IMG/VR virus record: IMGVR_UViG_3300023210_000017
Span: 29,689 to 93,688 of that record
Direction: 5' to 3' (one strand)
DNA from: a virus
DNA: 64,000 bases
The position numbers and the translations under genes were made by a program. This document shows, piece by piece, positions 27,812 to 59,974 of the stretch. Under the pieces are notes generated by a model, which had not been told where the DNA came from, did not search any database, and worked only from the letters and a program-made list of their open reading frames with translations. Position 1 is the first letter of the stretch; each line of letters starts with the position of its first letter.

Positions 27812-30800
27812 ATGGCAACGTGTATAAATAAGAACCTTAGTGAATTTAAAGAAGTGGCCAAGGTTATGGGTTCTCCTATTTTAGCAAATAGTTTAATAGC
27901 GTCATGGCAAATATTTAATAATAATGATTCAATTCCAACAGTAGTTGAAGCTCTAGCTTTTCATAAAAAAACAAAGTCATTTAGTACTTTAAAAATAAAT
28001 GAGTTTACTGAAGCGTTATATGCTAATTTAGTTAGAGAAAAAATACTAACTAAATTTAAAGGTGATTATTATATTGTTTCTTCACAAAATAGAATCTTTG
28101 ATCCTAATATAAGAAAGTTTAATAAAGATAGATTATATAACTATTTAAGAATAAATAATATAAATAGTGAATCTGTAGTAGAGACTACAAAAGGAAAAGG
28201 TTTATCAATAAAAATTAATAAAACTTTATTTTCACCAAAAGATATTATTCCTGAATCTAGAGGTTTTAATACTCCACAAACAAAAGAAGTTGTAAGACAT
28301 TTGATAAGAATGTTTCCTAAAATGAGAGTGAAGATGTTTTCAGTTAAAGATGCTAAAGCTTTACATGATGCCTTGCCTTCTTCACAAAGATCTAAAGTAA
28401 ATTTTAATGAAGTAAGATCTTTCTATATAAATGGAATGGCTATTTTAATTGAAGGTAGAGTTACAGATGATGTTGCTATTGAAGAAATCTTACATCCATT
28501 TATTGAAGCAGTTTCTTTAGATAATACAGCATTGTTTGATGGTTTAGTTAAAGAAGCTAAAAAAAGTTTTCCTGAATTATGGGAAGGTATAAAAGATTCA
28601 TATAATGATAATAAAGAGTTTAGTGAAAAAGATAGAAATTTAGAATTAGTAACTCAAGCTCTATCTAGACATTTCAATAAAGAGAATAAAGAAAATGGTA
28701 CAGTAACATTCCGCAACAGAGTAAAAGATTTTTTAGATTGGTTTCTAAATATAATAAAAGATCTTCATGAATATATAGCAGGAAAACCATTGACTGTTGG
28801 CATGATATCTCCAAATGCTACTTTAACAAGCATTGCAAAATTATTAAATACTGAAAGTATTGAATTTAAATTATCTACGTTACCAGAGAAAAAAATAAGA
28901 TATAATTTATCTCCAGAAAAAAAGCAGGTTTATGATTATATATCTGCAAGAGGGAATAAAGTTCAGCAATCAATTATAGAAACAATGTTTCATGCTGGTG
29001 TAAATTCACCTAAGCAAGTTGGGTCATTGGCAGCATCTACTATTACAGATGGAGATCCTATATTAGTTTTAGATGAAGCTACACACACCTATCAAGATAT
29101 TAATGATTTAACTAGCAAGTGGACAAGCGCTACAACAGCAATTAATGGTAAAATGTCTGATGAAGTTAAAGCTGAAATTCAATTAAATTTAGATTTAGGA
29201 AATGATTTTGATTCAATATTAGATGGTTTAGCTACAGATAAGTCATTAGAAGAAATCATGCCTAATCTTAAAGTTTTAAATCAAGAACAATCTGGAAAAG
29301 CTTATGCGGCATTACAAGCTAATTTAGCATTACTAACGCAAGACGGTAGTATAGCAATACCTCAAGTTGTTGTTTATGATCAAGCAACAGGAATGGCGGG
29401 TAGTATTGATTTATTATTAGTTAAACCTAATGGGACACTTAAGATAGTAGATCTTAAAACTTCACGTACATCTATTAGTGAAAAGAAAATTGGAGGAAAA
29501 CTTAAGTATGACACTATAAGTGAGTATGATACTCTTAACGAGGATAGTCTTTTAGCACAAAAAGGATTAGCTAAAGAACTTAGTAAAAGACAAAAGCATA
29601 ATCTGCAAGTAAATCTTTATAGAAGGATGTTAGAAAATATGGGTTATACCATATCTAATGAAGAAGGTGCTACTAGCACAATGCATATTAAAGTTGATGT
29701 GACAGGCCGAGGTAAGGAACAAAAGTTCAAAGGTGGGTTTACAACTGAACAATGGATAGAACATCCTATAAGTCAAAATCAGTTATATGTAGATGCAATT
29801 GTACCATCAAATGTAAATCAATCTAAAAAAGAAAAAATTAATGAGGCTACATCAGAATCTCCTGAGTCTATTCAAAGTTTTAATTTAAATGAAGAAGACC
29901 AAAAGCCGGATCCAATAGATGTAGACTCTTCTGGTAAGAATTCAGATATTGCATATGAAGTTATAGGTCAATCTTTAATGAATTATCAACTAGGTCTTGT
30001 TAAGAAGCAAGAAGTTATTAATGCAACTCAAGGTAAAGCATTTCTTGGCCGTCATCAAACAACAGCACAATTAGAAGAAAGTGTATTAAATGCAATTAGT
30101 GCAGTTAATATAGCATTAGCTGGATCACCTACAGGTAGATCTAGAACTTATACAGCATTGTTAAGAGATTCTTTAAAGCAAATTAATGAATTTCAAGCTT
30201 ATGTTGAAGATCCTGCAAATTTTGGAAAACCTGAGTATATATCTTATGTATTAAATTTTGATAAGTTCTTATCTACTTTTGAAGGACTATATGCTATTAG
30301 TAATGCTAAAGGATTAAATTCATCACAAAAAACTTTAGTATTACAGCTTCAAACCAAAGCAAATGAAATGGTTGGAGTTGGTGGTTTTGATAAATATTCT
30401 GAAGGAGTTATTGATAAAGCGGTAATGTCATATGTAAGAAGCACTGTTGAAAATACATCTGAAAGAGAGTTTACCAAAGATCAGTTAGATGAGTTATTGC
30501 AAATGGGTGAAGAGATGGGGGTTGTTGATTATCAAACAAGAGATATGGCTACTGCAGAAGATACCCTTTTAGCAGTAATGGATAAAATATATAAAATAAA
30601 AAAACAAGAACTTTTAGATAAAATACAAACTAGAGAAGGTGGCATAAGACGAGCTGCTCAAAAGCTTCAAGAATTAAGCGGTATTACAAATATAGAAAGC
30701 CCAAAGCAACTTAAGAAGTTGTATGAGTTTATGTTAATATTTGATAAAGATGGTGAATTTTCAGGAAGATATGTTCAAGAACTAGGAGAAGAATATCAAA

Positions 30801-33517
30801 ATAAACAAGATGAATTAAGAGCTCCTTTATTTGATGAACAAGGTCAACCATATCAGTTTAGAGATATTACAGATCTTGCAACAGCAAAACCTGAAGATAT
30901 TGAGTACAATAAAAAACTTGCAAAAAATAAAAGATTATTTGGAAAGTTTTTTAATGCTGAAACTAAAGGTTTAAATGATCAACCTGTACCGGGAGAATAT
31001 CATAGTTATACTGAAGAATTTAAAACTGCTAGAAAAATTCATGAATATTTTGTACCAGTTGGTGAAAATGGATATTGGAAAAGAAGAAAAAACATAAGTG
31101 ATCAAAATTGGTCTAAATATGAATCTAAATATTATACTACAGGTGTTGACAATGAAGGCGTAACTATAGCTTTAAAAGATCAAGATGGTAATTATACAGG
31201 TGCAATTAAAAAAGATTTTCTTTTTCCAAAAGTTAAAACTGAGTATAGAATAGCTAGATTAGATTCAGGATACCCGTCTAATAAAGATATGCGTAGTGAG
31301 CAATTTAAAGCTATACAAAATGATAAAACAGCATTAGGTTTAGCACGTAAAGAATTTTATGATTTATTTAGGTCCCAATATGAAAATGAACTTTTAACTA
31401 AATTACCAAAAGCCCAAAGAACTCAAATGTTAGGAAGAGTTCCATTAATAAGAGGGAGAGTTACTCAAGACTTAAGAGGTAAAGGTATACCGTTTGCAAA
31501 AGCATTTGCAAAAACAAGTAAAGGTGTAAAAAATCTTTTTACAACTACATCACAACAAAGAACTTTACTTACAGATGAAAAGAATAACATCATAGATACA
31601 ATGCCTATATTTTATACTGGTAGACCAGCAGATGATAAACAGCTTGTTGATATAGATGAAAGAATTCAATCATTAAATCAAGAAAGAAAAGAAGGTAAAG
31701 TAAAATTTCAAGAATATAAAGATAAAATAGCTATTCTTGAAGGTGAGCGTGTAAAAATAGAAAGTAAGCCAACTAGAGGTGAGTTAAACTTAGATATGGG
31801 GAATGGCTTATTAAAGTTTGCATCAATGGCAGAACATTATGAAACCATGAGTACTGTTGAGGATACGTTCAAAGCAATGCTTGAGGTTATAAAAAGAAGA
31901 GAATATCAACCTGCTGGTGGAAAAACTAAAACTCGTGTTAAAAAAGCACTTGGATTTGAGGCAAAAGGAGCAATAAAAGGAGTTGATTCAAATGTATTAA
32001 AGCGGGCTAAAAAGTGGATGTCTATGGTCTATTATGATAATGATCAAATGACTAAAGGATTTTTTGATAAAGCGGCTGATGGATTAATTCAATTTTCATC
32101 TTTATCATATGTTGCGTTTAATCCATTTGGTAACTTTAATAATTATGTTCTTGGTAGACTCAATGATAATATAGAAGCAATAGGGGGTAGATTTTTTGGT
32201 GCTACAGCGTATGGTAAAGCTTCTTTAGAGTGGAATAAAAGAGCTCTTCCTGATATGATTCATAGATTATCTTCAATGGCCCAAAAGCCTTTATGGAAAA
32301 ATGATTATGATCCAGAAATGCCAACTAGTAAGTATGAAGCATTTGTAGATCTATATAGAATGATGGATTCTGATGTAGAAATAAGAGAATCTGGTTCTAC
32401 TATAGATAGAGCTGGTAAATCTTATTTTAAAAGATTTATGGAATGGGGTTATGTAATGCAAGATGCTGCAGAGTGGAATGTTCAAAGTAAAGTTGGTATA
32501 GCAATGTTGATGGATACCTTTATTAAAAATAAAGAAACTGGAGAAATATTATCACTTTATGATGCACATGAATTTGACTCAGCAACTAAAGGTGTAAGAT
32601 TAAAAGAAGGTTTTACAACAATAGTAGAAATAGATAATAAAAATTTAGATGAAAATAGTCAGCCTCAATTAATAAGAGAAGTTGAAGAATATGGAGATCA
32701 ATATAGATATAAACTTAGAAATAAAATACGTGAAGTAAACAAACAAATACACGGTAACTATTCATCTGAAGATAGAATGGTTTTACAATCTAGCACAGTT
32801 GGTAAATTAGCAGCTCAATTTCACAAATGGGTTGCACCTGCAGCAAGAGCAAGATTTCAAAGAGAATATTTTGATGAAAACTTAGGTTGGATGGAAGGTA
32901 GATATTTAGGTTGGTGGAAATTTGTAGCTTACTCTTCTAGTCAAGTTGCTAAAGGAAATTTTAAATTTAATAAATTTTCAGATGGGTTTTTAGAAGATCA
33001 AGGTTTTATAGAAGGAGGAAGTAGACAAGATAACCAAAGAGCAAAAGATAAGTTATTTGGTTTTTATAGAACTATGGGAGAAATTGGAATTATGATGATG
33101 ACCATGGTAGTCAAAGAATTAATGGCTGCTAGTATGGGAGATACTGATGATGATGATGAGATTACAAGAAAGTTTAAAAATATAGCTTTATACCAGGCAG
33201 ATAGAACTTTTAAAGAATTAATTTTATTTACACCTTTTGGAGGAGATCAAATTTATCAAATGGTTAAATCTCCAATTGCATCTACAAGAACTATGGGTGA
33301 ATTAACTCAAGCATTGTATTCAACTATTGAAACTCCATATCAATACTTTACTTCATCTAATAATGAATTTTGGTCAAATTCAAGTGTAGTTTATCAAAGA
33401 GGAAGCAGAGCCGGTAGCCTTAAGTTGGTTAAAGAATGGCAAGATGGTATGATTATTTTATCTACTATTAAAAAATGGGAAAATTTTAATGATAGGCATG
33501 ATTTCTTTATTAAATAA
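27812..33517 (+). CDS. 1,901-residue protein with PD-(D/E)XK nuclease core
   Basis: Starts 10 nt after the RNA polymerase gene. Residues 533-549 read SID...IVDLKTS, with D533 and D547-x-K549 forming the PD-(D/E)XK signature of RecB/Cas4-like nucleases. The following QVNLYRRMLENMGY helix is also typical of that fold. An EEILHP stretch at 224-229 is reminiscent of a decayed metallopeptidase helix but lacks HExxH. Long Glu/Lys-rich helical segments occupy about 660-1500. Near 1757-1780 a Met-rich hydrophobic stretch (EIGIMMMTMVVKELM) could associate with membranes. As the last gene of the giant-protein block it is probably also packaged; degrading host DNA or trimming ends on entry would fit, but this is inference. 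Confidence 0.6.
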   Translation: MATCINKNLSEFKEVAKVMGSPILANSLIASWQIFNNNDSIPTVVEALAFHKKTKSFSTLKINEFTEALYANLVREKILTKFKGDYYIVSSQNRIFDPNIRKFNKDRLYNYLRINNINSESVVETTKGKGLSIKINKTLFSPKDIIPESRGFNTPQTKEVVRHLIRMFPKMRVKMFSVKDAKALHDALPSSQRSKVNFNEVRSFYINGMAILIEGRVTDDVAIEEILHPFIEAVSLDNTALFDGLVKEAKKSFPELWEGIKDSYNDNKEFSEKDRNLELVTQALSRHFNKENKENGTVTFRNRVKDFLDWFLNIIKDLHEYIAGKPLTVGMISPNATLTSIAKLLNTESIEFKLSTLPEKKIRYNLSPEKKQVYDYISARGNKVQQSIIETMFHAGVNSPKQVGSLAASTITDGDPILVLDEATHTYQDINDLTSKWTSATTAINGKMSDEVKAEIQLNLDLGNDFDSILDGLATDKSLEEIMPNLKVLNQEQSGKAYAALQANLALLTQDGSIAIPQVVVYDQATGMAGSIDLLLVKPNGTLKIVDLKTSRTSISEKKIGGKLKYDTISEYDTLNEDSLLAQKGLAKELSKRQKHNLQVNLYRRMLENMGYTISNEEGATSTMHIKVDVTGRGKEQKFKGGFTTEQWIEHPISQNQLYVDAIVPSNVNQSKKEKINEATSESPESIQSFNLNEEDQKPDPIDVDSSGKNSDIAYEVIGQSLMNYQLGLVKKQEVINATQGKAFLGRHQTTAQLEESVLNAISAVNIALAGSPTGRSRTYTALLRDSLKQINEFQAYVEDPANFGKPEYISYVLNFDKFLSTFEGLYAISNAKGLNSSQKTLVLQLQTKANEMVGVGGFDKYSEGVIDKAVMSYVRSTVENTSEREFTKDQLDELLQMGEEMGVVDYQTRDMATAEDTLLAVMDKIYKIKKQELLDKIQTREGGIRRAAQKLQELSGITNIESPKQLKKLYEFMLIFDKDGEFSGRYVQELGEEYQNKQDELRAPLFDEQGQPYQFRDITDLATAKPEDIEYNKKLAKNKRLFGKFFNAETKGLNDQPVPGEYHSYTEEFKTARKIHEYFVPVGENGYWKRRKNISDQNWSKYESKYYTTGVDNEGVTIALKDQDGNYTGAIKKDFLFPKVKTEYRIARLDSGYPSNKDMRSEQFKAIQNDKTALGLARKEFYDLFRSQYENELLTKLPKAQRTQMLGRVPLIRGRVTQDLRGKGIPFAKAFAKTSKGVKNLFTTTSQQRTLLTDEKNNIIDTMPIFYTGRPADDKQLVDIDERIQSLNQERKEGKVKFQEYKDKIAILEGERVKIESKPTRGELNLDMGNGLLKFASMAEHYETMSTVEDTFKAMLEVIKRREYQPAGGKTKTRVKKALGFEAKGAIKGVDSNVLKRAKKWMSMVYYDNDQMTKGFFDKAADGLIQFSSLSYVAFNPFGNFNNYVLGRLNDNIEAIGGRFFGATAYGKASLEWNKRALPDMIHRLSSMAQKPLWKNDYDPEMPTSKYEAFVDLYRMMDSDVEIRESGSTIDRAGKSYFKRFMEWGYVMQDAAEWNVQSKVGIAMLMDTFIKNKETGEILSLYDAHEFDSATKGVRLKEGFTTIVEIDNKNLDENSQPQLIREVEEYGDQYRYKLRNKIREVNKQIHGNYSSEDRMVLQSSTVGKLAAQFHKWVAPAARARFQREYFDENLGWMEGRYLGWWKFVAYSSSQVAKGNFKFNKFSDGFLEDQGFIEGGSRQDNQRAKDKLFGFYRTMGEIGIMMMTMVVKELMAASMGDTDDDDEITRKFKNIALYQADRTFKELILFTPFGGDQIYQMVKSPIASTRTMGELTQALYSTIETPYQYFTSSNNEFWSNSSVVYQRGSRAGSLKLVKEWQDGMIILSTIKKWENFNDRHDFFIK

Positions 33518-33599: not shown

Positions 33600-35459
33600 C
33601 TATTGAATTTCACAAGCACCTCCTGCACAGGCTAGTTCACCTGTAAGGTTTGTTTCATCTTTTTCTTCTATTACTTTAGATAAGTCAATTTCTTTAAGAT
33701 ATTTTAACATCTCATTGTACTTCTCTTTTGTAATGTCTTGAAAAGGTGCTTGCTTATATGTACCACCGTTATGCGGTAAAACAGATAATCCATTATAAGA
33801 ATCTCTATTTTCCCACATCCATTTACCAGCTAGGTCCCAATCATCTTCTTTTAAAGATATTGTGGCTGAAACATTATGGGTATTTGAACCAGTCCTATGA
33901 CCAGGTTTAATCCATTCTGCTGCAACTCTCTTAACTCTTTCTAAAAGAGCAAATGGGGATTCAGTTCTCATTATTGCTCCTTCTGGAGCTTTTTGAGGAA
34001 TGCTGATAACAGCAGTGGTATGAGGACTAAAAAACTCATCTTCTACCAATGCTGGGATGTTCTTAGAAAGATACTCATATATAGCTTCAGTCTTACCAAC
34101 CCGTAGAGTACGAATATAATAATCATTATGCCATGCATGAATACCAGAACTTGTTCCTAAAGTTAAAGATGTAGTGCCCGCAGGTTTTACAGTTGTTGTT
34201 CTAGCAGACTTATTGATTCCAATAAGCTTTGCTACTCTAGAGTTTTCTCTTTTTACAACATCTGCAGCTTTAGGCATATCATATGTTAAAACAGATCCAG
34301 ATCCAATTCCTGTCATTGACACGCCAATTAGCGCATCTTTTTCAGTGGTTTCTTTCCAGATATTTCTTAAATAATGAAAATCAGTATAACCAGCTTGAAG
34401 TGTACCAATAAATGCAGCACCCTTAACTCTTTCATTTAAGTCTTCTTGTGATTCAATATTAGATACATTAACTTCACATAGATTACAAAATTGAAAAGGA
34501 CGTAAAGCTATTTCACAACATGGATTGGTACCCCAATCTTTATCATTGTTAAAATAGAATCCAGGTTCTCCAGATCCACTTGCTTCTACACGTTTCCATA
34601 AATTCATAAAAAACTCTTCAGTAATTTTATGTCTTATTAAAACTGCAGAGTTATTTGCTCTACCTCTTTGTGGATTTAATTCCCACCAGTCTCCAGATTT
34701 ACATGAAATCATTTCTAAATCATCAGCACTAAATAAACTAATAAGTGCAGCTCTACGAATACCACCTGCTAATACTGCATCTGCAATATAACAAATCATA
34801 TCATGTACTTCTAAAGTTGTAAGCTTTTCACCATCTTCTTTTTGATCTAGAATACCTGTTAATTTAACAATACATTCTTTCAATGGTTGAGGGCCCGGTG
34901 CTTTACCACCTGATGTTACAAGTCTTGCGCCTTTAGCACGTATATCTGAATAATCAAATTCAATACCAGAACTTTTACCATTAAGATAAGACTTCATAAG
35001 AATTTTAATAGCATCAGCCCATCCTTCAATTGAATCACCAATTAAAAACCTACGTTTTCTTTTTGGATATGGTTTATTTATAGGAGGAAGTTTTTCTACA
35101 TGATGTTTTTGTACTGAGTAACCTACACCGGTTCCTCCTAGTAGTAAAAACATAACTTCACTAAATGACGCTTTGTCATCTATTGGTAAATAAGCACAAT
35201 TATATATTCTATTTGGTGATATTTCAATAGGTTTTCCACCAAATTGCATACTCCTCATTGACGGGAGAACTTTTTTATTATAGACAAGTTTATACACTTT
35301 ATTAATTTGATCCTTTAATTCTGGATATTTTTTAATGTGCATTTCCTTGTTTCTTGTTGTAAGTTCATTCCATGTCTCTCTTCTATTGAGTTCAGGTATA
35401 AATCTTGCATACTTCATGTGGACAGTAATGTCACTAAGAATTTTGTTGCTTAATTCCAT
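33600..35459 (-). CDS. nrdJ: Adenosylcobalamin-dependent (class II) ribonucleotide reductase
   Basis: 619 residues. Reduces ribonucleotides to deoxyribonucleotides using a B12-derived thiyl radical, supplying dNTPs for phage replication. The sequence has the redox cysteine C88 (RIYNCAY), the finger-loop motif NPCCEI with N312, C314 (thiyl) and E316, and CNL with C325, which would pair with C88. The 11-residue spacing between C314 and C325 matches the monomeric Lactobacillus-type enzyme. A C-terminal CAGGAC pair (C611/C616) is the usual re-reduction site. GGTGVGYSVQ (108-117) is a family hallmark. No separate small subunit is nearby, as expected for class II. It stands alone on the minus strand between two plus-strand late blocks, so it is probably transcribed from its own promoter upstream of 35,459. 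Confidence 0.9.
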   Translation of the reverse strand: MELSNKILSDITVHMKYARFIPELNRRETWNELTTRNKEMHIKKYPELKDQINKVYKLVYNKKVLPSMRSMQFGGKPIEISPNRIYNCAYLPIDDKASFSEVMFLLLGGTGVGYSVQKHHVEKLPPINKPYPKRKRRFLIGDSIEGWADAIKILMKSYLNGKSSGIEFDYSDIRAKGARLVTSGGKAPGPQPLKECIVKLTGILDQKEDGEKLTTLEVHDMICYIADAVLAGGIRRAALISLFSADDLEMISCKSGDWWELNPQRGRANNSAVLIRHKITEEFFMNLWKRVEASGSGEPGFYFNNDKDWGTNPCCEIALRPFQFCNLCEVNVSNIESQEDLNERVKGAAFIGTLQAGYTDFHYLRNIWKETTEKDALIGVSMTGIGSGSVLTYDMPKAADVVKRENSRVAKLIGINKSARTTTVKPAGTTSLTLGTSSGIHAWHNDYYIRTLRVGKTEAIYEYLSKNIPALVEDEFFSPHTTAVISIPQKAPEGAIMRTESPFALLERVKRVAAEWIKPGHRTGSNTHNVSATISLKEDDWDLAGKWMWENRDSYNGLSVLPHNGGTYKQAPFQDITKEKYNEMLKYLKEIDLSKVIEEKDETNLTGELACAGGACEIQ

Positions 35460-48085: not shown

Positions 48086-49210
48086 TTATTTATCTAATCT
48101 AAATCCGTGGCACACTGGAAATCTTGGTATACCATCTTCACTATATTCAAAGAATCTTATCTCTGCAGTTTTACCAATGTAATCAGCTTTATTAATTAAT
48201 ATCTCCTCACGTTCAGCATGAGAAAACTTCATTCCACAACCAAATGTACCTTTATCATTTTCACAGTGCACTACACCTTGTTCTGGATTCTTATCTGAAG
48301 GTAGTACATCTATTACATTACAAGAAATATCTATAAAATCTTTATATTTTAATAATTGACTATCTCTTTTATTAATAGCATATCCAGCATCACTGTGTCT
48401 TACAATTGTTCCTTCATATCCTTGAGATATAAATTCACCATGTAAACGTTTTAAGGCTTCTTCATCAGCTACAACATATGTTTTGACTAATTCAATAGCA
48501 TCTACATAACTGGCTAAACTTTTAAGGATTTTAAATCTTTCTATAAAAGGAATATCTAACACAATGTCATACACGCAAAACTTTACTTTTTCAGTCTCTT
48601 CACCACGGTCTTTTTTAATAAGCCTCATGTTTTCTTGAAATGACTCACCGTGTACATACAATTCACCATCTAAATAATTATCATTTAGTTCCTGTGAAAC
48701 ATTTGGAAGAGCATCTTCAATGTGTTTCATTGTATCTATAGATTTTCCTTTTCTTGATATAAATCCTGACTTTTTATTGTATAAAGCCCTCATTCCATCT
48801 AATTTTGGTTGAATAACGCATGGAAACTTAATTTTATGAGATTCTTTTTTATAATCTTTAGCCAACATAGGTAGAATTACTACATTATTTTCAGCTTCTT
48901 CAATTGTTTTAAAATAACCCTGAGTCATTTTATTTTTAATTTTAGATGTTGCTTCTAATATAGCTTGCTGTTCAGGCGTTGTTTCATTAGATTTACCAGT
49001 ATTTTTTCCTTCACAAGTATGAACATGATTAATCATATTTTCACTACCGTGTACTCCAGAATTTTGAATTACATCAGCACCTTTATTATAAACGTGTAAT
49101 ACACGCACTTTTCCTTTACTATCTTTTTTATAGATTTTTTTTGAAAATGATTTTATTTGATCATTCATAATTGCATTTTTAATAATTTTTGATTTTAAGT
49201 GTACTGTCAT
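48086..49210 (-). CDS. ATP-dependent DNA ligase
   Basis: 374 residues. The nucleotidyltransferase core carries motif I KLDGMR with adenylated Lys136, motif III YLDGELYVHG near 175, motif IV GYEGTIVRH near 257, and motif V LLKYKDF near 278. A C-terminal OB-fold domain follows. The first 120 residues are an extra N-terminal region (KGKVRVLHVYNKG then MTQGYFKTIEEAE) that resembles a small WGR-like DNA-binding module. It seals nicks in phage DNA during replication and repair. The expected C-terminal domain is complete. Confidence 0.85.
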   Translation of the reverse strand: MTVHLKSKIIKNAIMNDQIKSFSKKIYKKDSKGKVRVLHVYNKGADVIQNSGVHGSENMINHVHTCEGKNTGKSNETTPEQQAILEATSKIKNKMTQGYFKTIEEAENNVVILPMLAKDYKKESHKIKFPCVIQPKLDGMRALYNKKSGFISRKGKSIDTMKHIEDALPNVSQELNDNYLDGELYVHGESFQENMRLIKKDRGEETEKVKFCVYDIVLDIPFIERFKILKSLASYVDAIELVKTYVVADEEALKRLHGEFISQGYEGTIVRHSDAGYAINKRDSQLLKYKDFIDISCNVIDVLPSDKNPEQGVVHCENDKGTFGCGMKFSHAEREEILINKADYIGKTAEIRFFEYSEDGIPRFPVCHGFRLDK

Positions 49211-49252: not shown

Positions 49253-49310
49253 AAGGGTGGATGTGTACATTTCTGCACACATCCAATAACAATCAATTAT
49301 GGCTACCCTT
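49253..49310 (-). terminator. Nested hairpin between the 411-aa gene and ligase gene
   Basis: GGATGTGT (49259-49266) and ACACATCC (49277-49284) form a perfect 8-bp stem. An outer pair, AAGGGT (49253-49258) and ACCCTT (49305-49310), could extend the structure. No strong T-tract follows on the minus strand, so attenuation, RNA processing or a regulatory RNA structure are as likely as termination. Confidence 0.45.
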
Positions 49311-50544
49311 AAAGTTGTACATCAGCCAAAAGTTCTCCAAAGCTTAGTTGATTAGGATCAACTTCTTTTACAGCAAATTCTTTTGAAAGTTTGATATCTG
49401 ATATATCTAATTTAAAAATATCACTTTTAGTTAATCCTATATCTGCAAATACTGTTTCAGAAATATCAACAATTGTTGCTTTATATGCAAATTCTGTTAT
49501 TGCATCATTTTCTTTTAAATATCTAAACAGTCTTTCATATGGATACATTCCTCTATTATAATCATCTTTTGTACCTGCTTTCTCTAATCTAGATCTTAAT
49601 GTTTTAACATTTACAGTATTCCAATTCTTAGCATTTCTTAAATAATAAGCATGTTTAAAATATAATAATGCAGCTTTATCTAAAGACTTTTCTATATTAC
49701 AGTTTGCTAACATTTCTAAGCCTACAGCCATATTATCTATATCTTTAGATTTAAACATAGAGTTTAAAGATTTATATTGATCTTCTGTTAATACTACAGA
49801 ATCCTCAGAGCATATTTTTGAAATATGAGAATCCATAACTAAATTATTGCTGTCACTCATACTTTTAAATGCAACAGCATCTGTTAAATATAAAGGACGA
49901 CTAATAACATCTATATCACTTATATTACTCACTTTAGTTACCCTCTTTAATGTATCAAAATTATCACTCCAATTATAATTAATAGATATATGAAAATAAG
50001 AATCTTCTGAAATTTTATTTAAAAAATTTTCTAATGAAGCTTTAGCTTGTGAATCTAAATGCTCATTAAGATCAGTAACATAATGATTGATTGCTTTTTT
50101 AGTATATACAGATTGCCATCCACCATGAAACATATTATTTATATATTTTTTAGATATAATCTTATAATCAGCTTTTGTTCTATCTCTTATAATTTTAACA
50201 TTATACTTATCTTTTAATAAATCTACTTTTGATCTTGGTAAAGTTAAATCTGGATACCTGTATAATAATTTATCTTGGATATCTGCACCTGTTATATTTA
50301 ATGCTTTATCAGATATAACAGAAAGATCCTCCTTATGATTTCCTGAAGCTGGATTTACATATAAACACTCTACACCTTGTAAATCATAATTAACTTCACT
50401 TTTTACATGCCAGTTATTTCTCAACCATTCTGTACTATATGACAAACTATCTAATAAAAGAATAGAATCTCCAGTACCTAAATCAGCTGTAGTTTCTTTA
50501 TTTATAGTTATTGATATTACATATACTTTTTTTAGTTCATTCAT
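49309..50544 (-). CDS. Unknown protein (411 aa), paralogue of the next upstream gene
   Basis: 411 residues with no recognised domain. Residues 101-139 (TLPRSKVD ... RTKADYKIISKKY..MF) align by eye with residues 71-113 of the 340-aa upstream protein (ILPKCPIS ... YEAADFIITHDDFYELF). A second region (LTEDQYKSL...SKDIDN, about 257-290) matches DLTEELVND...SSDNDN there. The two look like diverged paralogues. Their start/stop overlap of 4 nt and place downstream of AAA+ and VWA/metallopeptidase genes suggest they form part of one complex with these. It ends just before a nested hairpin. Confidence 0.65.
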   Translation of the reverse strand: MNELKKVYVISITINKETTADLGTGDSILLLDSLSYSTEWLRNNWHVKSEVNYDLQGVECLYVNPASGNHKEDLSVISDKALNITGADIQDKLLYRYPDLTLPRSKVDLLKDKYNVKIIRDRTKADYKIISKKYINNMFHGGWQSVYTKKAINHYVTDLNEHLDSQAKASLENFLNKISEDSYFHISINYNWSDNFDTLKRVTKVSNISDIDVISRPLYLTDAVAFKSMSDSNNLVMDSHISKICSEDSVVLTEDQYKSLNSMFKSKDIDNMAVGLEMLANCNIEKSLDKAALLYFKHAYYLRNAKNWNTVNVKTLRSRLEKAGTKDDYNRGMYPYERLFRYLKENDAITEFAYKATIVDISETVFADIGLTKSDIFKLDISDIKLSKEFAVKEVDPNQLSFGELLADVQL

Positions 50545-51563
50545 TTTAAATATTTTTGATATTCTTTTTTTACACTTACTTTAAATGTATATAACTCTCT
50601 ATTATGTATGGAGATTTCTTGACGTATTATTTTTTCAAGAAACCTAAATGATGCTGAATCAAGTTTTTTTTCTTCTTCAAGCTTTAAAACCATTTCTTGA
50701 GCTTCTGTACGATAAAGACTATTTATATCTGCAGCGTCCATCCAATATTGAACATCTTTATCTCTTTTAAAACTATACATTCTACCTCCTATTTTTTGAG
50801 CTAAATGCCATACTAAATGAGGATGTTTTGTATAATTTATTGTTGGTAAAATTTTACCAGCAAGACTTATGTTATCATTATCTGATGAATCTAACCAATG
50901 TTCTAAATCATTAACCAATTCTTCAGTAAGATCAATTAGATTTGCTGAAGAATGCAATAATGTTTCTGAATCTAAAGTTTGCAATTGACCAGCTTCTATT
51001 AAATATGCTAAATTTATAGCAAGACCTGGAATACCACATTCATCCATTAATGAATCAGTTACATTGCAATGATAAGAGTTTGTATGTTCAGTCCATTTTT
51101 CATCATATATTACAGATTTATCATGGGTTTCAACTATATTAATTCTACCATTACTTGAATCCATAGCTTCATAATTCCATAAAGTATACATCACAGTTTG
51201 AATTTTAATTTTTTCACCGTGTTGAAATAGTTCATAAAAGTCATCATGTGTAATTATAAAATCAGCCGCTTCATAATCATTGGTAATGGTTATTTTATGT
51301 TCTTTACAAGCAGCTTTAATTCTGTCTTGAGATATGGGGCATTTAGGTAGAATAAATGCTCTTTTATAAGATTGAAAATTAGTAGAAGTTAATGTAGATC
51401 CTGCTAAAATATCTTTTATTTTATTATATGTAGTTACATCTTGGGTTATAAGCACGTCATCAACTTGATTTGAAGTGATGAGCCCAAACATAGGCTCATC
51501 CTCCAATCCAAAGTGAATAAGTGCATCTAAATTGTATTCTTGATATACTGATTTATTTGCCAT
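50541..51563 (-). CDS. Unknown protein (340 aa), paralogue of the 411-aa protein
   Basis: 340 residues, acidic, with no family recognised. It shares the LPK(x)nADFIIT(x)nF segment at 71-113 and the LTEELxxxL...S-D-DN segment near 198-222 with the following gene product, supporting a duplication. Residues 30-60 (NQVDDVLITQDVTTYNKIKDIL) and 90-105 suggest alternating strands and helices. It is encoded one base after the AAA+ ATPase gene. Given that MoxR ATPases act with VWA proteins to remodel a target, this protein and its paralogue are candidate targets or adaptors. This is inference from order only. Confidence 0.65.
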   Translation of the reverse strand: MANKSVYQEYNLDALIHFGLEDEPMFGLITSNQVDDVLITQDVTTYNKIKDILAGSTLTSTNFQSYKRAFILPKCPISQDRIKAACKEHKITITNDYEAADFIITHDDFYELFQHGEKIKIQTVMYTLWNYEAMDSSNGRINIVETHDKSVIYDEKWTEHTNSYHCNVTDSLMDECGIPGLAINLAYLIEAGQLQTLDSETLLHSSANLIDLTEELVNDLEHWLDSSDNDNISLAGKILPTINYTKHPHLVWHLAQKIGGRMYSFKRDKDVQYWMDAADINSLYRTEAQEMVLKLEEEKKLDSASFRFLEKIIRQEISIHNRELYTFKVSVKKEYQKYLK

Positions 51564-51564
51564 A

Positions 51565-52833
51565 TTATTTTATTGTCATCTTGATAATTTCTGGTTTCAT
51601 CATCAATTTATTAAATTTTTGCTTGTTTCCGTTGAAAATAGTTCTTACAACTAAGTACTTAAGATCATTAGTAAAATAATCTTTTGTACAAAGAGCTTCT
51701 AATCTATCAGTGATCTTTTGTGTAATTGTATTTTCTTTAGAATAAACAACTGAATAATTAGCTAATCTTGTAGCTAATGTTGACGCAATGTCTGCACGAT
51801 AATTATCATCTTTACCTACACATCCTGTTAACTCACCAAGAATATAAGACTCATTATCATGAGTTAATAGATCTTTTGGAGTAACAAGTTTATCTAACTT
51901 ATTATTAATAAAAACTGTAAACATTGATGCAAATTCATCACCTACAGATCCTTCACCAATCATTTGAATGTATGGTAAATTATCTTCAAAATTTTCAAAA
52001 CTTGATATTGAATTAAAGAATGTAGTAATTGCTCTTGCATTTGTTTCTTGTGTTACAAGCTCAGGATGTAATAATAAAAAGTTAATACATCTTGAATCTA
52101 TCCCAGCTTCTTCTGCCCAACGAGCCCATACATCTACATCAAATTGAAGATTAGCTGTTATGTATCTTGTTTTTTGTGCTGAATCAACTGAATTAACCAT
52201 ATAATCTCCAGTATCTGGATTTGCTGTTAATACAATATGCCAATCTTTAGGAAGAGACCATGAAATATATGTTTGTCTGTCAACTAACTCCATACATGCT
52301 TGAATAAATCTAACATCTGCACGGTTCCAATCATCTAATAATAAAATACCACCGGCTTTTTTATCAGCAATCCATTCTGGTGCACAATAAGACATTCTAT
52401 TCTTACCTGTCATCTTATAACCATTTTTTAAATAGTCAGCTACAGCAAGTTCATTAACCCATTGGCCAACTTTTTTTGTAACAGTATTTTGTGACATTTT
52501 TGTTAAATCTTCAGAAGCAGCTGCTTGAGATGAATATTGTATATCATCAGATTTACCAACTTTTACAACTTGCTCTTTATACATTTGAAATTGTCTTGTT
52601 GGAAATCCAACTAAATCACCAAGCTCTTCAATTTGAGCTAAATTTAATTTTACAAAATCTAAATCATGTTCTTCAGCTATTTCTTTAACTGTAGATGTTT
52701 TTCCAATTCCAGATTCACCCAATACTTCTATTGAGACAGGAAGCTTTCCTTCTTTTTGTAAAAATCTATTGTTATTAATAATGTGACCCATAAATCCTTT
52801 TAGGTCGTCAATGTTTAAATTTACTTGTGCCAT
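51565..52833 (-). CDS. MoxR-like AAA+ ATPase
   Basis: 422 residues. Walker A is GESGIGKT (39-46), followed by FVKLNLAQIEELGDLVGFP, typical of MoxR-type ATPases. Walker B is GGILLLDDWNRAD near 158, with the WNRAD sequence at the sensor/inter-subunit position and HIVLTANPDTGDY after it (sensor 1, Asn). The protein hydrolyses ATP to remodel a partner. MoxR ATPases are usually encoded beside a VWA-domain protein, and here such a gene lies directly upstream (24-nt gap). The role in phage replication is unknown. Confidence 0.8.
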   Translation of the reverse strand: MAQVNLNIDDLKGFMGHIINNNRFLQKEGKLPVSIEVLGESGIGKTSTVKEIAEEHDLDFVKLNLAQIEELGDLVGFPTRQFQMYKEQVVKVGKSDDIQYSSQAAASEDLTKMSQNTVTKKVGQWVNELAVADYLKNGYKMTGKNRMSYCAPEWIADKKAGGILLLDDWNRADVRFIQACMELVDRQTYISWSLPKDWHIVLTANPDTGDYMVNSVDSAQKTRYITANLQFDVDVWARWAEEAGIDSRCINFLLLHPELVTQETNARAITTFFNSISSFENFEDNLPYIQMIGEGSVGDEFASMFTVFINNKLDKLVTPKDLLTHDNESYILGELTGCVGKDDNYRADIASTLATRLANYSVVYSKENTITQKITDRLEALCTKDYFTNDLKYLVVRTIFNGNKQKFNKLMMKPEIIKMTIK

Positions 52834-52857
52834 AATTGTTTTTTTATTAATTTGTTT

Positions 52858-54012
52858 TTAGTTTAATTGTATTTTTTGTCCTGGTAATTCATCATTTATA
52901 CTGCATGCAGAACTATGCACCCATAAAGTATTATTTGGACATTTGTCTGGAGTTCCTGCTTCTCCATCTGTAAAATAGATGAGAGCTGTATATCTTCCAA
53001 ACTCATTATAATGGTCTATAACAGGTTGGAATATTGTCCCACCTCTACCATGTATTTCCCAATCTTGTTTAGGATTAAAATCCTTAACTGAGTTTATTTT
53101 TGTATCACATTGAACAATTGTAATTTTATGTCCAGTTTTATGCATGTGAGTCAATTCACTAAAAAATTCTTTTAATTCATTTTGACTTACAGAACCTGAT
53201 GTATCTACACCAACACATATGTGATTTTTAAATTTAATTTTAAGACCAGGGCTACCTGAATATCTTTTGTTATACTTCCGTCTGATCTTCTTTGTAAAAA
53301 CAATAGAAGAGTTTCCAACAAATCTGCGTAAATATCCTTTCCAATCAAATTTTGCAGGTTCAACATGTCTTAGTCTTTGAATAAGATCTGCTAACTCTCC
53401 AGGTATGCTACCACATCTTTTTTCTGTTGTGTCAGCATTTTCTTTGACTTGATGATCAATCTGTTTTTGAATTAACTTTTTTTCAGCTTCAGGGATATCC
53501 TCAAAATCATCCCAAGTAGGATGACAATATGGAGAATTACCATCCATTTCATCTAAAAGTGAATCTAAAGCTGGACAAGAACCATCTTGACGGGCCTCTT
53601 CTAACATTTTATAATATACTTTAGTTCCAGCTCTACAAGGAAAGTTTATTTCAGGAAAAGAATCAAATGTTAATCCGCCTTCTGGAAGATCTGAACTATC
53701 TATGTATTGATTAATTTCTAAATCAGCTGCTATATTAAATAGTTTATGATCACTGTACATATCTCGCATAATTAAATGCCCAAAACTTATATGAAGTAAT
53801 TCATGTTTTAATAAACCAACTCTATGTCTTTCACTTAAAGAATTAAAAAAATCAGGATTTACTGTTAATTGTACGCCTATTCCATTCTTGCTGACACCAG
53901 CTGTAGGAATTTTATCTGTGAAGGATTTATTTAATCCAACTAAAAAAAGCCCGTAAAAGGGCTCTTCAAATATTAAGTTTTTACTTGTTTTTGAAACTAA
54001 GTCTGCTACCAT
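52858..54012 (-). CDS. VWA-domain protein with N-terminal DUF2201-type metallopeptidase motif
   Basis: 384 residues. The N-terminal part has HELLHISFGH (70-79), the HExxHxxxxH zinc signature of the DUF2201 putative metallopeptidase family. The C-terminal VWA domain begins HICVGVDTSGS with the MIDAS motif DTSGS (270-274), has GRGGT (the MIDAS Thr) and ends IYFTDGEA. The domain pair is typical of VWA partners of MoxR AAA+ ATPases, the gene for which follows. It may present or cleave a substrate remodelled by the ATPase. A 7-nt overlap with the upstream 125-aa gene indicates coupling. Confidence 0.8.
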   Translation of the reverse strand: MVADLVSKTSKNLIFEEPFYGLFLVGLNKSFTDKIPTAGVSKNGIGVQLTVNPDFFNSLSERHRVGLLKHELLHISFGHLIMRDMYSDHKLFNIAADLEINQYIDSSDLPEGGLTFDSFPEINFPCRAGTKVYYKMLEEARQDGSCPALDSLLDEMDGNSPYCHPTWDDFEDIPEAEKKLIQKQIDHQVKENADTTEKRCGSIPGELADLIQRLRHVEPAKFDWKGYLRRFVGNSSIVFTKKIRRKYNKRYSGSPGLKIKFKNHICVGVDTSGSVSQNELKEFFSELTHMHKTGHKITIVQCDTKINSVKDFNPKQDWEIHGRGGTIFQPVIDHYNEFGRYTALIYFTDGEAGTPDKCPNNTLWVHSSACSINDELPGQKIQLN

Positions 54013-54383
54013 TTTTTATTGTTTTTGTTTATGTCATCTATATTAGGATGAAAGCTCGGATTATATATTAATTTTTTATAAATTAATTTGTAATTATTTT
54101 TATAAGCACTTTTATCTTTACTTATATTTCTAACTATATTATGTGTTGTTAAACTTTCCCAAGTTTCAGTATTATATGGTAAATCAAAGTATGCACTATA
54201 AGATACTCTTTCAGTAAAAAATAAAAGTTTTAAAAATAACATATGATATATGTCCGTCATATTCATATTTTTTATAGTCACGTATGCTAAATCTCTATCT
54301 TCAATAGTTGATTCAATCATTTTTAGTAATCTCTTAAATGTTTTAAGATCAATATCTAATTCATTTTTTACTTCACTTGTCAA
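54006..54383 (-). CDS. Hypothetical protein (125 aa)
   Basis: 125 residues, mostly helical, Lys/Asn/Tyr-rich, with a central hydrophobic segment (YHMLFLKLLFFTERVSYSAYF, about 51-71). This could be a buried helix rather than a membrane pass because charged residues interrupt it. No known motif. The start overlaps the stop of the RusA-like gene by 4 nt and its end overlaps the VWA gene, so it belongs to this operon. It may be a small subunit of the AAA+/VWA assembly. Confidence 0.6.
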   Translation of the reverse strand: MTSEVKNELDIDLKTFKRLLKMIESTIEDRDLAYVTIKNMNMTDIYHMLFLKLLFFTERVSYSAYFDLPYNTETWESLTTHNIVRNISKDKSAYKNNYKLIYKKLIYNPSFHPNIDDINKNNKKW

Positions 54384-54760
54384 GATTTAATAATTTTAAT
54401 TTCTACACCGGGATTTACTTTATCATATAAGTAAGGTTCAAATACAGGTATTATATTTTCCATATTATCATCTTCAATCCAATTATATGTGACCATATCA
54501 TCTTGGGTTGTTTGAGCTGGATTAATATAATCAAACTTATGTTTGCTGCCTCTAATGAAAGTAAAAGAGACTTTAACAGGTAGTGTATGCTTTTTTAATT
54601 CTTCTTTAAATTCTGGAGCATATTTTTCAAAAAAAGATTTAGTATCTTTTCTATATTTCATAGTAGATTTACTTGCTATAAAGTACTTGCCTGTCCAACG
54701 TCTTCCATTTTTACTAGACGGAACATTCCCTGGTATAAACCATTTTTTTTCTTTTGCCAT
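54380..54760 (-). CDS. RusA-like Holliday junction resolvase
   Basis: 126 residues, the usual RusA length. The N terminus FIPGNVPSSKNGRRW matches the RusA opening (PxSKN). Acidic residues in HKFDYIN (D77), TTQDDM (D87, D88) and IEDDN (D97, D98) match the conserved catalytic Asp positions in the D-x-DN...D...DD pattern. It would cut four-way junctions during recombination-dependent replication or packaging. It fits with the RecB-like nuclease, SSB-like protein and P-loop ATPase in the same operon. Confidence 0.75.
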   Translation of the reverse strand: MAKEKKWFIPGNVPSSKNGRRWTGKYFIASKSTMKYRKDTKSFFEKYAPEFKEELKKHTLPVKVSFTFIRGSKHKFDYINPAQTTQDDMVTYNWIEDDNMENIIPVFEPYLYDKVNPGVEIKIIKS

Positions 54761-54761
54761 A

Positions 54762-55736
54762 TTATTTGTGTATAGTCTTCTTAAGAAGAGATTTTAATTC
54801 ATCATGGACTTTTTCCCATCCATAATTTTTAACAGCATCTGAAGGATCTTTGCTTAAGCTAATTGTTGTGCCATCTAGATTATATAATTCTTTATATTTA
54901 TCTATAGCATTTTTTCCTGCTGTATCATTATCAAAAAGTGTTATTACTTTTTTATATTTATTTTTCAAATTTTCAATTATATGAGGTTTTATCATTGTAT
55001 TTTCACTGTCTGGAGCAATTAACTCTACATTATATCCAAATTCATCTAAACACATTATATCTTTTAAAGATGATGTTATTATTAAATAAGGTTTATTATA
55101 TTGTAATTGATCTATACCTTGAATATGAGATGCTACTTTATGAAACTTATGTTTTTTATTAAACGGTTGGTAAATTTTATATAATTCACCAGACTTATTA
55201 TAATACCCATACATTGAAGATGATTGAATTTTTATTTTATTTAATTTATCATCATCCTGTTTAATCATATTGTAATATTCAATAGGAGCTACATTATATT
55301 TTTCAAGCATAGTTTTACCTATTCTATATTGAAGCCAATATTTTACATCTATTTGATTCCAGTCTCTTGTTTTTATTAATTCAATTTCCCATTTAGCAGC
55401 CACTTTAAAAGATACATCTATTGTGTTACTCTTTATAAAGACATTATAGTCTTTGATCATTTTTTCTATAGAATCTGAATAATTTAAATTAAATAACTTT
55501 TGAATTAAATTAATTTTATTTCCTCCAGTACCAGTTGAAAAATCTTTAAACATATAACATTGCTTTTGCGTATCTACATATATGCACATACTAGGAGTTT
55601 TTTCAATTGGATTCCACGGAGATGTTATTTTTAAATCTTGACCAGTGAGAGATTCCTCTATATTGAGATAATACTGAAAAACCCAATAACTTGGAATATC
55701 TGATTCTCTTACAACTAAGTTTTTAGTATTTATCAT
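54762..55736 (-). CDS. DnaG-type primase with altered Toprim domain
   Basis: 324 residues. A Toprim-like core is visible: PYLIITSSLKDIMCL (216-230), then APDSEN (241-246) and VITLFDNDTAGKNA (264-277) with D269 and D271. In canonical DnaG/Toprim enzymes the first strand ends in a catalytic Glu (xxEGxxD); here TSSLKD has Ser at that place. The N-terminal 100 residues resemble a CHC2-type region (TPSMCIYVDTQKQCYMFKDFSTG) but lack the zinc cysteine/histidine set. It probably makes RNA primers for the phage replisome with the DnaB-like helicase, although loss of Glu leaves its activity uncertain. Confidence 0.75.
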   Translation of the reverse strand: MINTKNLVVRESDIPSYWVFQYYLNIEESLTGQDLKITSPWNPIEKTPSMCIYVDTQKQCYMFKDFSTGTGGNKINLIQKLFNLNYSDSIEKMIKDYNVFIKSNTIDVSFKVAAKWEIELIKTRDWNQIDVKYWLQYRIGKTMLEKYNVAPIEYYNMIKQDDDKLNKIKIQSSSMYGYYNKSGELYKIYQPFNKKHKFHKVASHIQGIDQLQYNKPYLIITSSLKDIMCLDEFGYNVELIAPDSENTMIKPHIIENLKNKYKKVITLFDNDTAGKNAIDKYKELYNLDGTTISLSKDPSDAVKNYGWEKVHDELKSLLKKTIHK

Positions 55737-55794: not shown

Positions 55795-56001
55795 TTACTC
55801 TTTTTCTGCAACTACTTCAGCGTCTGGAGAAACAGCATCAGCTGATTCTTCAATTACAACTTCAATAACAGCTTCTTCAACTACAACTTCTGCAATTTCT
55901 TCTACTGCTGGTGCAGCATCAGATGTAGCTTCATGTGTATCTGAATCATTACAAGAATAAAGTGCACAAAGTGCAAATAAACTAAAAAATAACTTTTTCA
56001 T
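55795..56001 (-). CDS. Small lipoprotein with acidic Glu/Val-rich body
   Basis: 68 residues. A signal peptide MKKLFFSLFALCALYSC ends in lipobox LYSC, so Cys17 would be lipidated. The following NDSDTHEA is acidic, like the lipoprotein export signals that send Bacteroidota lipoproteins to the cell surface. The rest is a low-complexity run of Glu, Val, Ile and Ala (EEIAEVVVEEAVIEVVIEE) without a recognisable fold. It is followed directly by a strong terminator. A role in superinfection exclusion by coating or blocking the host surface is plausible by analogy with other phage lipoproteins; there is no direct evidence. Confidence 0.7.
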   Translation of the reverse strand: MKKLFFSLFALCALYSCNDSDTHEATSDAAPAVEEIAEVVVEEAVIEVVIEESADAVSPDAEVVAEKE

Positions 56002-58942: not shown

Positions 58943-59520
58943 ACTATTTTTTCTTTAAAATAATCTTCTTCTGTAGTAACTCCATCTTTAATCATATCAC
59001 AGTAATCTGCAAGTTTTGATGTCTTTACTTTATGCTTATCTTGTTTAGAAATGAAATATTGACTATTCTGCATATACATATACTCTTTATCTCTATATTC
59101 ATTTACATACATTTTAGCTGCTTTTATAACATCTTCCCAGGTATAATCATATTCTGCAAAAAACCATCTAAAATTTTCAGTTAGTATTTTTACATTGTTT
59201 CTAGCTGGGACCCCAGATGGTAATTTAATTGCAGGAAATATTTCCCTGTATTGACTAATATTTAATTTACCACTTTTACCCAATAATTGAGCATTGGTCT
59301 TTTTCTTATTTATAAGGAAGTAATTATCAAGTGTAACAATAATTTTTTTACCTTCTGGAGTTATAGATTTATCTTCATGTATATATCCTTCTTCAAATAA
59401 AGCTGATAAATCAGCAGCTCCACAATTTAAAGGCGTGATATCTTCATTAAATGCAAATAATATTAAGCATTGATCTGGTGTTATTTTATATTTCTGTATT
59501 TTTTGGAATAGTTCCCACAT
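58939..59520 (-). CDS. Replication protein, possible helicase loader
   Basis: 193 residues. The N-terminal 70 residues (KYKITPDQCLILFAF...LFEEGYIHEDKSITPEGKK) look like a winged-helix domain. Residues about 90-190 are helical with several aromatic residues (YREIFPAIKLPSG, TENFRWFFAEYDYTWEDV). Genes of this size directly upstream of a DnaB-like helicase often encode loaders or origin-binding partners. There is no P-loop, so it would not be an ATP-dependent DnaC-type loader. The start lies inside the preceding gene (35-nt overlap). Confidence 0.5.
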   Translation of the reverse strand: MWELFQKIQKYKITPDQCLILFAFNEDITPLNCGAADLSALFEEGYIHEDKSITPEGKKIIVTLDNYFLINKKKTNAQLLGKSGKLNISQYREIFPAIKLPSGVPARNNVKILTENFRWFFAEYDYTWEDVIKAAKMYVNEYRDKEYMYMQNSQYFISKQDKHKVKTSKLADYCDMIKDGVTTEEDYFKEKIV

Positions 59521-59974
59521 AATCTTTTAATTTATTAAGTAATAAGTTATATCCAGTCATAAAAGTTTCATCATTACTCCAAATATAAGCTTCTGATCTA
59601 TTAATTGAATTTATAGCAGTAGCATGATTTTTGTGTAAAAATTCACCAATAAGCGTGGGCCCAAAGTTTAATTCTTTATTAGCTATATGAGAAAATGCAT
59701 GCATATAAGTTATCCATGTTCTCTTTCTAGTTTTTTTTTGTAAAAAAGTATATTCTAGATATTCAGGATCATTTTCTGCTACAACTTCAATTAATAAAGC
59801 CCATAATTCTTTTAATGATATAATTCTATTTTGATTTGGATTAACCGGTACAGAAACTACATATAATTTAACATTGTGTATATTGAACATTTTACTTCTA
59901 AAATTAGAAATTTCTAATTCAACTTGTTCTTGAGAAGTTAATTTTATTTTTTGACTTTCTTTTAGTTTAATCAT
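59486..59974 (-). CDS. DnaA domain IV-like DNA-binding protein
   Basis: 162 residues. Residues about 83-128 resemble the DnaA C-terminal double-stranded DNA-binding domain: RKRTWITYMHAF, then GPTLIGEFLHKNHATAINSI, which matches the IGxxFxxxDHxTVxxA helix-turn-helix signature (here KNHATAI). The AAA+ module of DnaA is absent. It probably binds repeated sites such as a phage origin or regulates replication genes. It is the first gene of a replication operon, 39 nt downstream of the UDG gene, and is preceded by the candidate promoter TTTGTATATT. Confidence 0.7.
   Translation of the reverse strand: MIKLKESQKIKLTSQEQVELEISNFRSKMFNIHNVKLYVVSVPVNPNQNRIISLKELWALLIEVVAENDPEYLEYTFLQKKTRKRTWITYMHAFSHIANKELNFGPTLIGEFLHKNHATAINSINRSEAYIWSNDETFMTGYNLLLNKLKDYVGTIPKNTEI

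Follow-up and report, generated by a model that had tools for sequence, protein, structure and literature searches.

A predicted MoxR-like ATPase/VWA remodeling module with three paralogous partner proteins in the replication block of a crAss-like phage

A tightly packed five-gene run

We analyzed a 64,000-nucleotide stretch of viral DNA, referred to here as the window, which corresponds to bases 29689–93688 of the 93.7-kb virus record IMGVR_UViG_3300023210_000017, and focused on five genes predicted to combine an ATPase and a von Willebrand factor A (VWA) protein with three mutually related partners. All five open reading frames (ORFs) lie on the minus strand with the sizes and coordinates assigned to them in an earlier sequence-only reading of this DNA. 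In order of transcription they encode p125 (54006..54383), a small basic protein of 125 aa with a TTG start and an isoelectric point (pI) of 9.0; the VWA protein (52858..54012); a MoxR-like AAA+ ATPase (51565..52833); p340 (50541..51563), which has 340 aa and is acidic (pI 5.1); and the fast-evolving p411 (49309..50544; 411 aa). The packing is tight, with p125 overlapping the upstream RusA gene by 4 nt and the VWA gene by 7 nt, and the 4-nt overlap between p340 and p411 described in the earlier reading is not only present in the window but also found in 35 distinct relatives.

The ATPase/VWA pair

The VWA protein joins an N-terminal zincin-like DUF2201_N domain (HELLH at residues 70–74) to a C-terminal VWA domain with a metal ion-dependent adhesion site (MIDAS; DTSGS at residues 270–274). 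It passes the curated cut-offs of both DUF2201_N (PF13203; 7.5e-16, 59.0 versus 23.2 bits) and DUF2201 (PF09967; 2.7e-15, 57.0 versus 26.4 bits). The motifs HELLH, NxxxDxxxN, DTSGS, GGT and TDG are invariant across the lineage, with HExxH and the MIDAS signature DxSxS-T-D intact: HELLH is kept in 147 of 148 relatives, the remaining one having a gap, and the MIDAS residues in 148 of 148, confirming the earlier observation that both sites are preserved. The protein is thus predicted to be a DUF2201 metallopeptidase-VWA.

In the ATPase, Walker A (GESGIGKT, 39–46), Walker B (LLLDDWN, 164–170), the sensor-1 asparagine (N205) and two basic finger residues (K221 and R223) are invariant in 137–138 of 138 relatives, and the protein matches PHROG_1297 'ATPase' at 1.1e-33. 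It falls below all Pfam AAA cut-offs (AAA_3, 15.8 versus 27 bits; AAA_5, 12.4 versus 22; AAA, 21.0 versus 21.2), and no subfamily model recognizes it. Because no curated AAA model passes, we label it MoxR-like rather than a MoxR member, a name that reflects its VWA partnership and a weak sequence similarity; with this qualification, the earlier assignment of a MoxR-like/VWA remodeling pair is supported. A match to PADLOC DolB (1.5e-5) was rejected, as it covers the P-loop region only and indicates a generic AAA protein.

Several loci show variations in these two genes. The near-identical contig IMGVR_UViG_3300023112_000134 (locus L002, 9180–10448) has one in-frame stop in the ATPase gene, which is intact in locus L001; the stop may be an artifact of sequencing or mark a gene that is truly disrupted. 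The reading frame of the ATPase (L193, L197 and L240) or of the VWA protein (L182–L184) can be broken into two ORFs separated by about 1.1 kb, which looks like the insertion of an intron or intein. An optional ORF of 128–136 aa, starting with MGRYY.GDIEGKF.FG.Q.S..AD.FGV, lies between the VWA and ATPase genes in a minority of loci (L025, L030, L047, L076, L079, L128, L304 and others), including 18 of the 113 in our first set. The window lacks this ORF, whose product may be an additional component of the module.

p125, p340 and p411 belong to one family

Profiles were compared by hhalign, using family alignments with 85 members for p340 and 82 for p411 and taking other families of the same region as controls. 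The p340–p411 comparison scored 1e-6 to 7e-6 (probability 85–90%, about 167 columns), p411–p125 scored 2e-7 to 8e-7 and p340–p125 1e-4 to 2e-4, whereas unrelated families of the region gave 2.4e-3 or worse. The three are one another's best profile matches among the families of the region, and the hidden Markov model of one partner family matches members of another down to 1e-7. On these comparisons p340 and p411 are distant homologues, i.e. paralogues, as the sequence-only reading had suggested in calling them a duplicated family; its count of two members has to be extended, as p125 belongs to the same family through a shared helical block. This block spans residues ~5–50 of p125, ~199–290 of p340 and ~246–330 of p411, where N281 of an NCN motif is invariant, and a profile built from all three finds exactly these three places, and no fourth copy, in the 93.7-kb record. 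Of the shared motifs listed earlier, the AD(Y/F)xI and LTE..S-D-DN blocks are retained, whereas the LPR/LPK pairing is out of register, with ILPK of p340 aligning to YRYPD of p411. Because all three partners are present throughout the lineage, the ancestral duplication that produced this co-encoded trio predates the diversification of the lineage.

Searches of Pfam, NCBIfam, PHROGs and PADLOC with the partners returned scattered sub-threshold matches only, which we treat as chance (the VMAP-C model was not compared directly), and p340 and p411 had no match among 50,697 phage records. By fold, p411 has four matches in a viral library, with E-values of 3e-7 to 3e-10: a protein from an uncultured phage, another from CrAss-like virus ctYsL76 and two from a single phage, ctz6O13. 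These model-based matches suggest that ctz6O13 also carries a paralogue pair, and the partner family seems to reach other phages. As far as the databases searched and the literature consulted show, the obligate three-member partner family is undescribed; the novelty claimed earlier for the whole system thus holds for the three partners and not for the ATPase/VWA pair, which has been described before (PMC4193335, PMC7824862).

The partners never leave the pair within the lineage

To quantify co-occurrence, we used 181 distinct loci, remaining after removal of duplicates and fetched by searches with the VWA protein, the ATPase, p340 (two queries) and p411, plus three contigs of metagenome-assembled genomes; a gene was counted only where the locus sequence leaves room for it. 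Loci with the ATPase contained p340 in 153 of 153 cases and p411 in 136 of 136, while those with p340 contained the ATPase (167/167), the VWA protein (165/165) and p125 (162/164). At one locus of an earlier set without detectable p125, a 136-aa ORF occupies the gap. The gene order is fixed, at most 150 nt separate the ATPase stop from the p340 start in 106 of 106 loci, and short overlaps between p340 and p411 are common. The co-occurrence of all five genes, which the sequence-only reading had proposed as a check, is therefore obligate in the close lineage. That reading had also stated that finding the pair in relatives without the partners would speak against it: this never happens within the lineage, whereas farther away the pair is found with no p340 or p411 match in three phages, Moorella phage MTATph1, Vibrio phage SBP1 and cyanophage S-TIM66, although remote homologues could be missed. 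The engine thus appears to be general and the partners lineage-specific, as far as sequence comparison reaches.

The five proteins change at very different rates. Over 138 complete loci, mean identity was 83% for the ATPase, 74% for the VWA protein, 70% for RusA, 59% for the primase, 47% for p340, 30% for p411 and 26% for p125, and the constraint on the engine is about that of DnaB or Sak4. Among pairs of phages with 94–100% identical ATPases, p411 is 72% and p125 76% identical, compared with 92–93% for primase, RusA and VWA protein. These values suggest that change in the partners is either tolerated or favored, and the gradient is as expected for a fixed engine with variable recognition parts.

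A weakly BRCT-like block in p340 and p411

AlphaFold2 models of p340 and p411 reached a predicted local distance difference test score of 91.9 and 85.3, respectively, and Foldseek comparison of both with the PDB gave no significant fold. For each model separately, the PARP1 BRCT domain had the highest probability (0.77) among the listed matches, with E-values of 0.4–0.8, and in a search with the joint-block sequence profile PARP1 BRCT ranked 2nd and 5th of 177,635 PDB sequences (E 0.16–0.26). The block in question spans residues ~67–115 of p340 and ~92–140 of p411. In the p411 model the strands (E) and helices (H) E93-96, H104-114, E117-119, E127-130, H132-137, E139-141 and H149-162 fit the beta-alpha-beta-beta-alpha-beta-alpha order of BRCT domains, whereas only the first half of this topology fits the p340 model. 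Because the fold and sequence routes agree, a BRCT-like half-domain is plausible, which is distinct from BRCT membership; among the Pfam families listed for p340 and p411 there is no BRCT match. A relation to clamp loaders was rejected: a clamp loader (E 0.055) and ketol-acid reductoisomerase (0.069) lead the Foldseek matches by E-value, but with probabilities of 0.08 or less.

The module is embedded in the replication block

The gene directly upstream of p125 encodes a RusA-like Holliday junction resolvase (54380..54760, minus strand; PHROG_1682, 5e-19), whose position beside the module is kept in 112 of 112 loci, and is preceded by a DnaG-type primase (54762..55736, minus strand; PHROG_12622, 1.5e-26), the first gene of the apparent transcription unit. 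The full minus-strand order is primase, RusA, p125, VWA, ATPase, p340, p411, an ATP-dependent ligase, a PD-(D/E)XK exonuclease, two unknowns and PolB. The module is thus flanked by primase/RusA on one side and ligase/exonuclease on the other, with DnaB, Sak4 and PolB close by, in agreement with the replication-coupled setting proposed earlier. A terminator-like hairpin of 12 pairs (49258..49285, minus strand) directly 3' of p411 and a second one upstream of the primase (55788-55753) weakly suggest a seven-gene unit extending from primase to p411. An 8-pair hairpin after p411 is present in just 42 of 146 relatives, and we dropped the idea of a conserved terminator there, as the same test found one after the ATPase gene in 104 of 147 and is thus noisy.

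Other features of the neighborhood were recorded. The ATP-dependent DNA ligase directly after p411 (window 48086-49210) has only 7 matching loci including repeats, with 3 distinct sequences, and since few relatives have it, it is a recent or mobile neighbor. Before the primase, a 68-aa ORF (55795-56001, minus strand) has a lipoprotein-like start, MKKLFFSLFALCALYSCNDSD, with acidic residues after the cysteine; its resemblance to Bacteroidota lipoproteins is a hint to the host. A 162-aa protein of the replication block (59486-59974, minus strand) changes very fast, with a median identity of 29% to relatives, and is unrelated to p125, p340 and p411 in profile comparison. On the strand opposite to the module, two giant ORFs of 5201 and 1901 aa occupy positions 12196-27801 and 27812-33517 (plus strand), the shorter one matching an exonuclease PHROG at 9e-10.

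The phage belongs to a crAss-like lineage

The primase matches 85 records, including Bacteroides, Cellulophaga and 'uncultured cr...' phages, and the classified ones among the rows inspected are Crassvirales. The exonuclease profile matches 9 loci of the crAss-like kind, from the same phages as the primase, and the RusA profile matches RusA of Cellulophaga phage phi14:2 at 2.4e-48. The gene order of gut crAss-like phages, PolB-DnaB-Sak4-unknown-primase-RusA-exonuclease, is partly retained, and a crAss-type primase is found together with a replication block of PolB, DnaB, AAA ATPase and PDDEXK exonuclease. The capsid protein is nearest to that of Leptolyngbya phage Lbo-JY46 (2e-53), followed by Cellulophaga phages phi4:1 and phi17:2 and the epsilon-crAss phage csAssE-Sib (~1e-8). 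By primase, exonuclease and gene order, we assign the phage to a crAss-like lineage and place it in no family; the lineage consists of uncultured and probably marine phages.

Named crAss-like phages showed no match to DUF2201_N and none to p340 or p411, in searches that remote relatives could escape. The slot of the module is occupied in crAss001 (L322, gp75-gp79) by ThiF-like and metalloprotease-annotated genes, and in phi14:2 (L333, gp034-gp038) by cyclotransferase, ATP-grasp-like, aminotransferase and amidoligase genes. The primase-RusA/exonuclease slot could be a recurrent site for modules that modify proteins. The crAss001 'metalloprotease' cluster was rejected as an equivalent of the module: none of our families matches it, and going by its annotation we take it for a ThiF/JAB-type cluster. 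Our ATPase profile does not match the CbbQ/norQ-annotated genes that precede the primase in cr115_1 and cr10_1.

Discussion

Our preferred reading, which we hold tentatively, is that the five genes encode a MoxR-VWA remodeling engine that works with its own set of three paralogues, either adaptors or clients, and is probably linked to replication. The five products would form one protein-remodeling module, in which p340, p411 and p125, as paralogous subunits, would make up an adaptor or client complex dedicated to the engine; their common helical block may be held by the engine or by sibling partners, whereas the diverged N-terminal parts would select the target. The least certain step concerns the target itself, which could be a nucleoprotein complex acting in replication or recombination of the phage and involving primase, RusA, exonuclease, PolB or host fork factors. 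BRCT modules recognize repair and replication complexes, and such a target is suggested because the module is always embedded in the replication block and p340 and p411 resemble BRCT modules. A bolder version, in which a five-subunit machine with BRCT-like adaptors remodels replication or recombination at phage or host forks and would be the first MoxR-VWA system dedicated to replication, we regard as doubtful. By analogy with NorQ/NorD and RavA/ViaA, the VWA protein would bind the target and the ATPase ring apply force. For NorQ/NorD, PMC13036017 describes a VWA-domain finger in the ATPase pore together with a contact made by the C-terminal end of NorD, and proposes that the complex twists and stretches the NorD linker, thereby acting on the target.

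Several observations weigh against the replication-linked adaptor reading. All loci come from one lineage, so that 100% co-occurrence measures stability rather than many independent events; the operon linkage could reflect inheritance alone, the physical interaction being a prediction. Once shared ancestry is accounted for, the distances correlate only modestly (partial r 0.01–0.48). The BRCT similarity is below significance in each single search, and the family alignments lack BRCT hallmarks, with YN/EH at the position of the GG-turn and no conserved Trp in helix 3; p340 carries a charge of −17, unlike a DNA binder. In other viruses, virion assembly is the demonstrated or proposed role of the same engine (PMC4124505, PMC7824862).

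The last point leads to the alternative that the pair is a virion assembly or maturation chaperone that assembles or processes structural proteins, with p125, p340 and p411 as scaffold-like or structural clients. We consider this rather unlikely, although the MoxR-VWA pair p618/p892 of Acidianus two-tailed virus (ATV) functions in tail development (PMC4124505), the proposal for group 2.2 jumbo phages, whose vWA protein carries a fused metallopeptidase, includes peptidolytic processing (PMC7824862), N4-like phage RPP1 has four virion-protein genes near its gp24/gp25 homologues (PMC4193335) and the zincin motif HELLH is intact here. What argues against it is the position of the module in the replication block, co-directional with primase and RusA while the giant late-type genes run on the other strand, and that the partners have no consistent structural PHROG match. 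The rate gradient would also fit a counter-host module, in which the fast-changing partners capture variable host proteins of defense, nucleoid or replication for inactivation by the engine: few proteins of the region change as fast as p125 and p411 (26–30% identity versus 83% for the ATPase), also between phages with near-identical ATPases. Relaxed constraint could also explain this speed, and every member of the lineage has the genes, whereas anti-defense genes typically come and go. PADLOC gave no match for p340, p125 and the VWA protein, a weak one for p411 (0.0016) and P-loop-type matches only for the ATPase, none of them meaningful, so that the counter-defense role suggested earlier gained no support and a counter-host function appears improbable.

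Somewhat harder still to credit is that p125, p340 and p411 are chance neighbors, i.e. replication accessory proteins functionally unconnected to the pair and kept by gene order alone. Primase and RusA are equally syntenic in the lineage, so order proves little, but the ligase and the 128-aa ORF between VWA and ATPase vary, yet the five genes never separate. That the module inserts metals or cofactors, like NorQ/NorD or CobS/CobT, into a metalloenzyme of the phage, for instance the ribonucleotide reductase encoded at 33600-35459, is highly improbable: the phage encodes this enzyme, and PHROG_249 'porphyrin biosynthesis' matches the ATPase weakly (3e-4), but the reductase gene lies outside the operon, the three homologous partners lack a metalloenzyme signature and the ATPase is recognized by no subfamily model, even if insertion is the best-known MoxR-VWA mechanism (PMC13036017).

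Among phages, MoxR-VWA pairs belong to the core gene set of the N4-like group and turn up again in cyanophages and jumbo phages, with a role that is at most a proposal. Lineage-specific partners that never leave the pair provide a concrete handle on what the engine acts on, be it replication, virions or host proteins, and with the partner family seemingly present in other phages, the answer could matter for viruses that abound in the gut and the environment.

Comparison with known systems

We know of no homologue of p125, p340 or p411 in NorQ/NorD or RavA/ViaA. The mechanism is expected to be shared with these systems, whose targets are respiratory enzymes (PMC10585395, PMC13036017). The vWA-MoxR ternary conflict systems of the VMAP type (PMC7159879) likewise combine MoxR, vWA and a constant extra component in fixed order; they are bacterial, have the order VMAP-MoxR-vWA and carry effector domains, whereas the order here is p125-VWA-ATPase-p340-p411 and no effector domain was seen. 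Among viruses, p618/p892 of the archaeal virus ATV (PMC4124505) offers a likeness by description rather than by sequence, with a viral MoxR ATPase, a strong VWA partner and further viral client proteins, comparable to the candidate clients here; unlike here, p618 is a virion component in tail growth. In N4-like phages, gp24 and gp25 are core genes (PMC4193335), and we found VWA homologues (tblastn 2e-13 to 1e-24), one of them named N4 gp25-like. In SBP1 the ATPase lies just upstream, with the order reversed (ATPase before VWA), another ORF in between and no p340 or p411 match. Group 2.2 jumbo phages, like the phage studied here, combine MoxR with a vWA protein that carries an N-terminally fused metallopeptidase, and the passage of PMC7824862 that proposes virion assembly for them names no third family; compared with these jumbo phages, the module described here has three paralogous partners, belongs to a smaller crAss-like phage and is located in the replication block.

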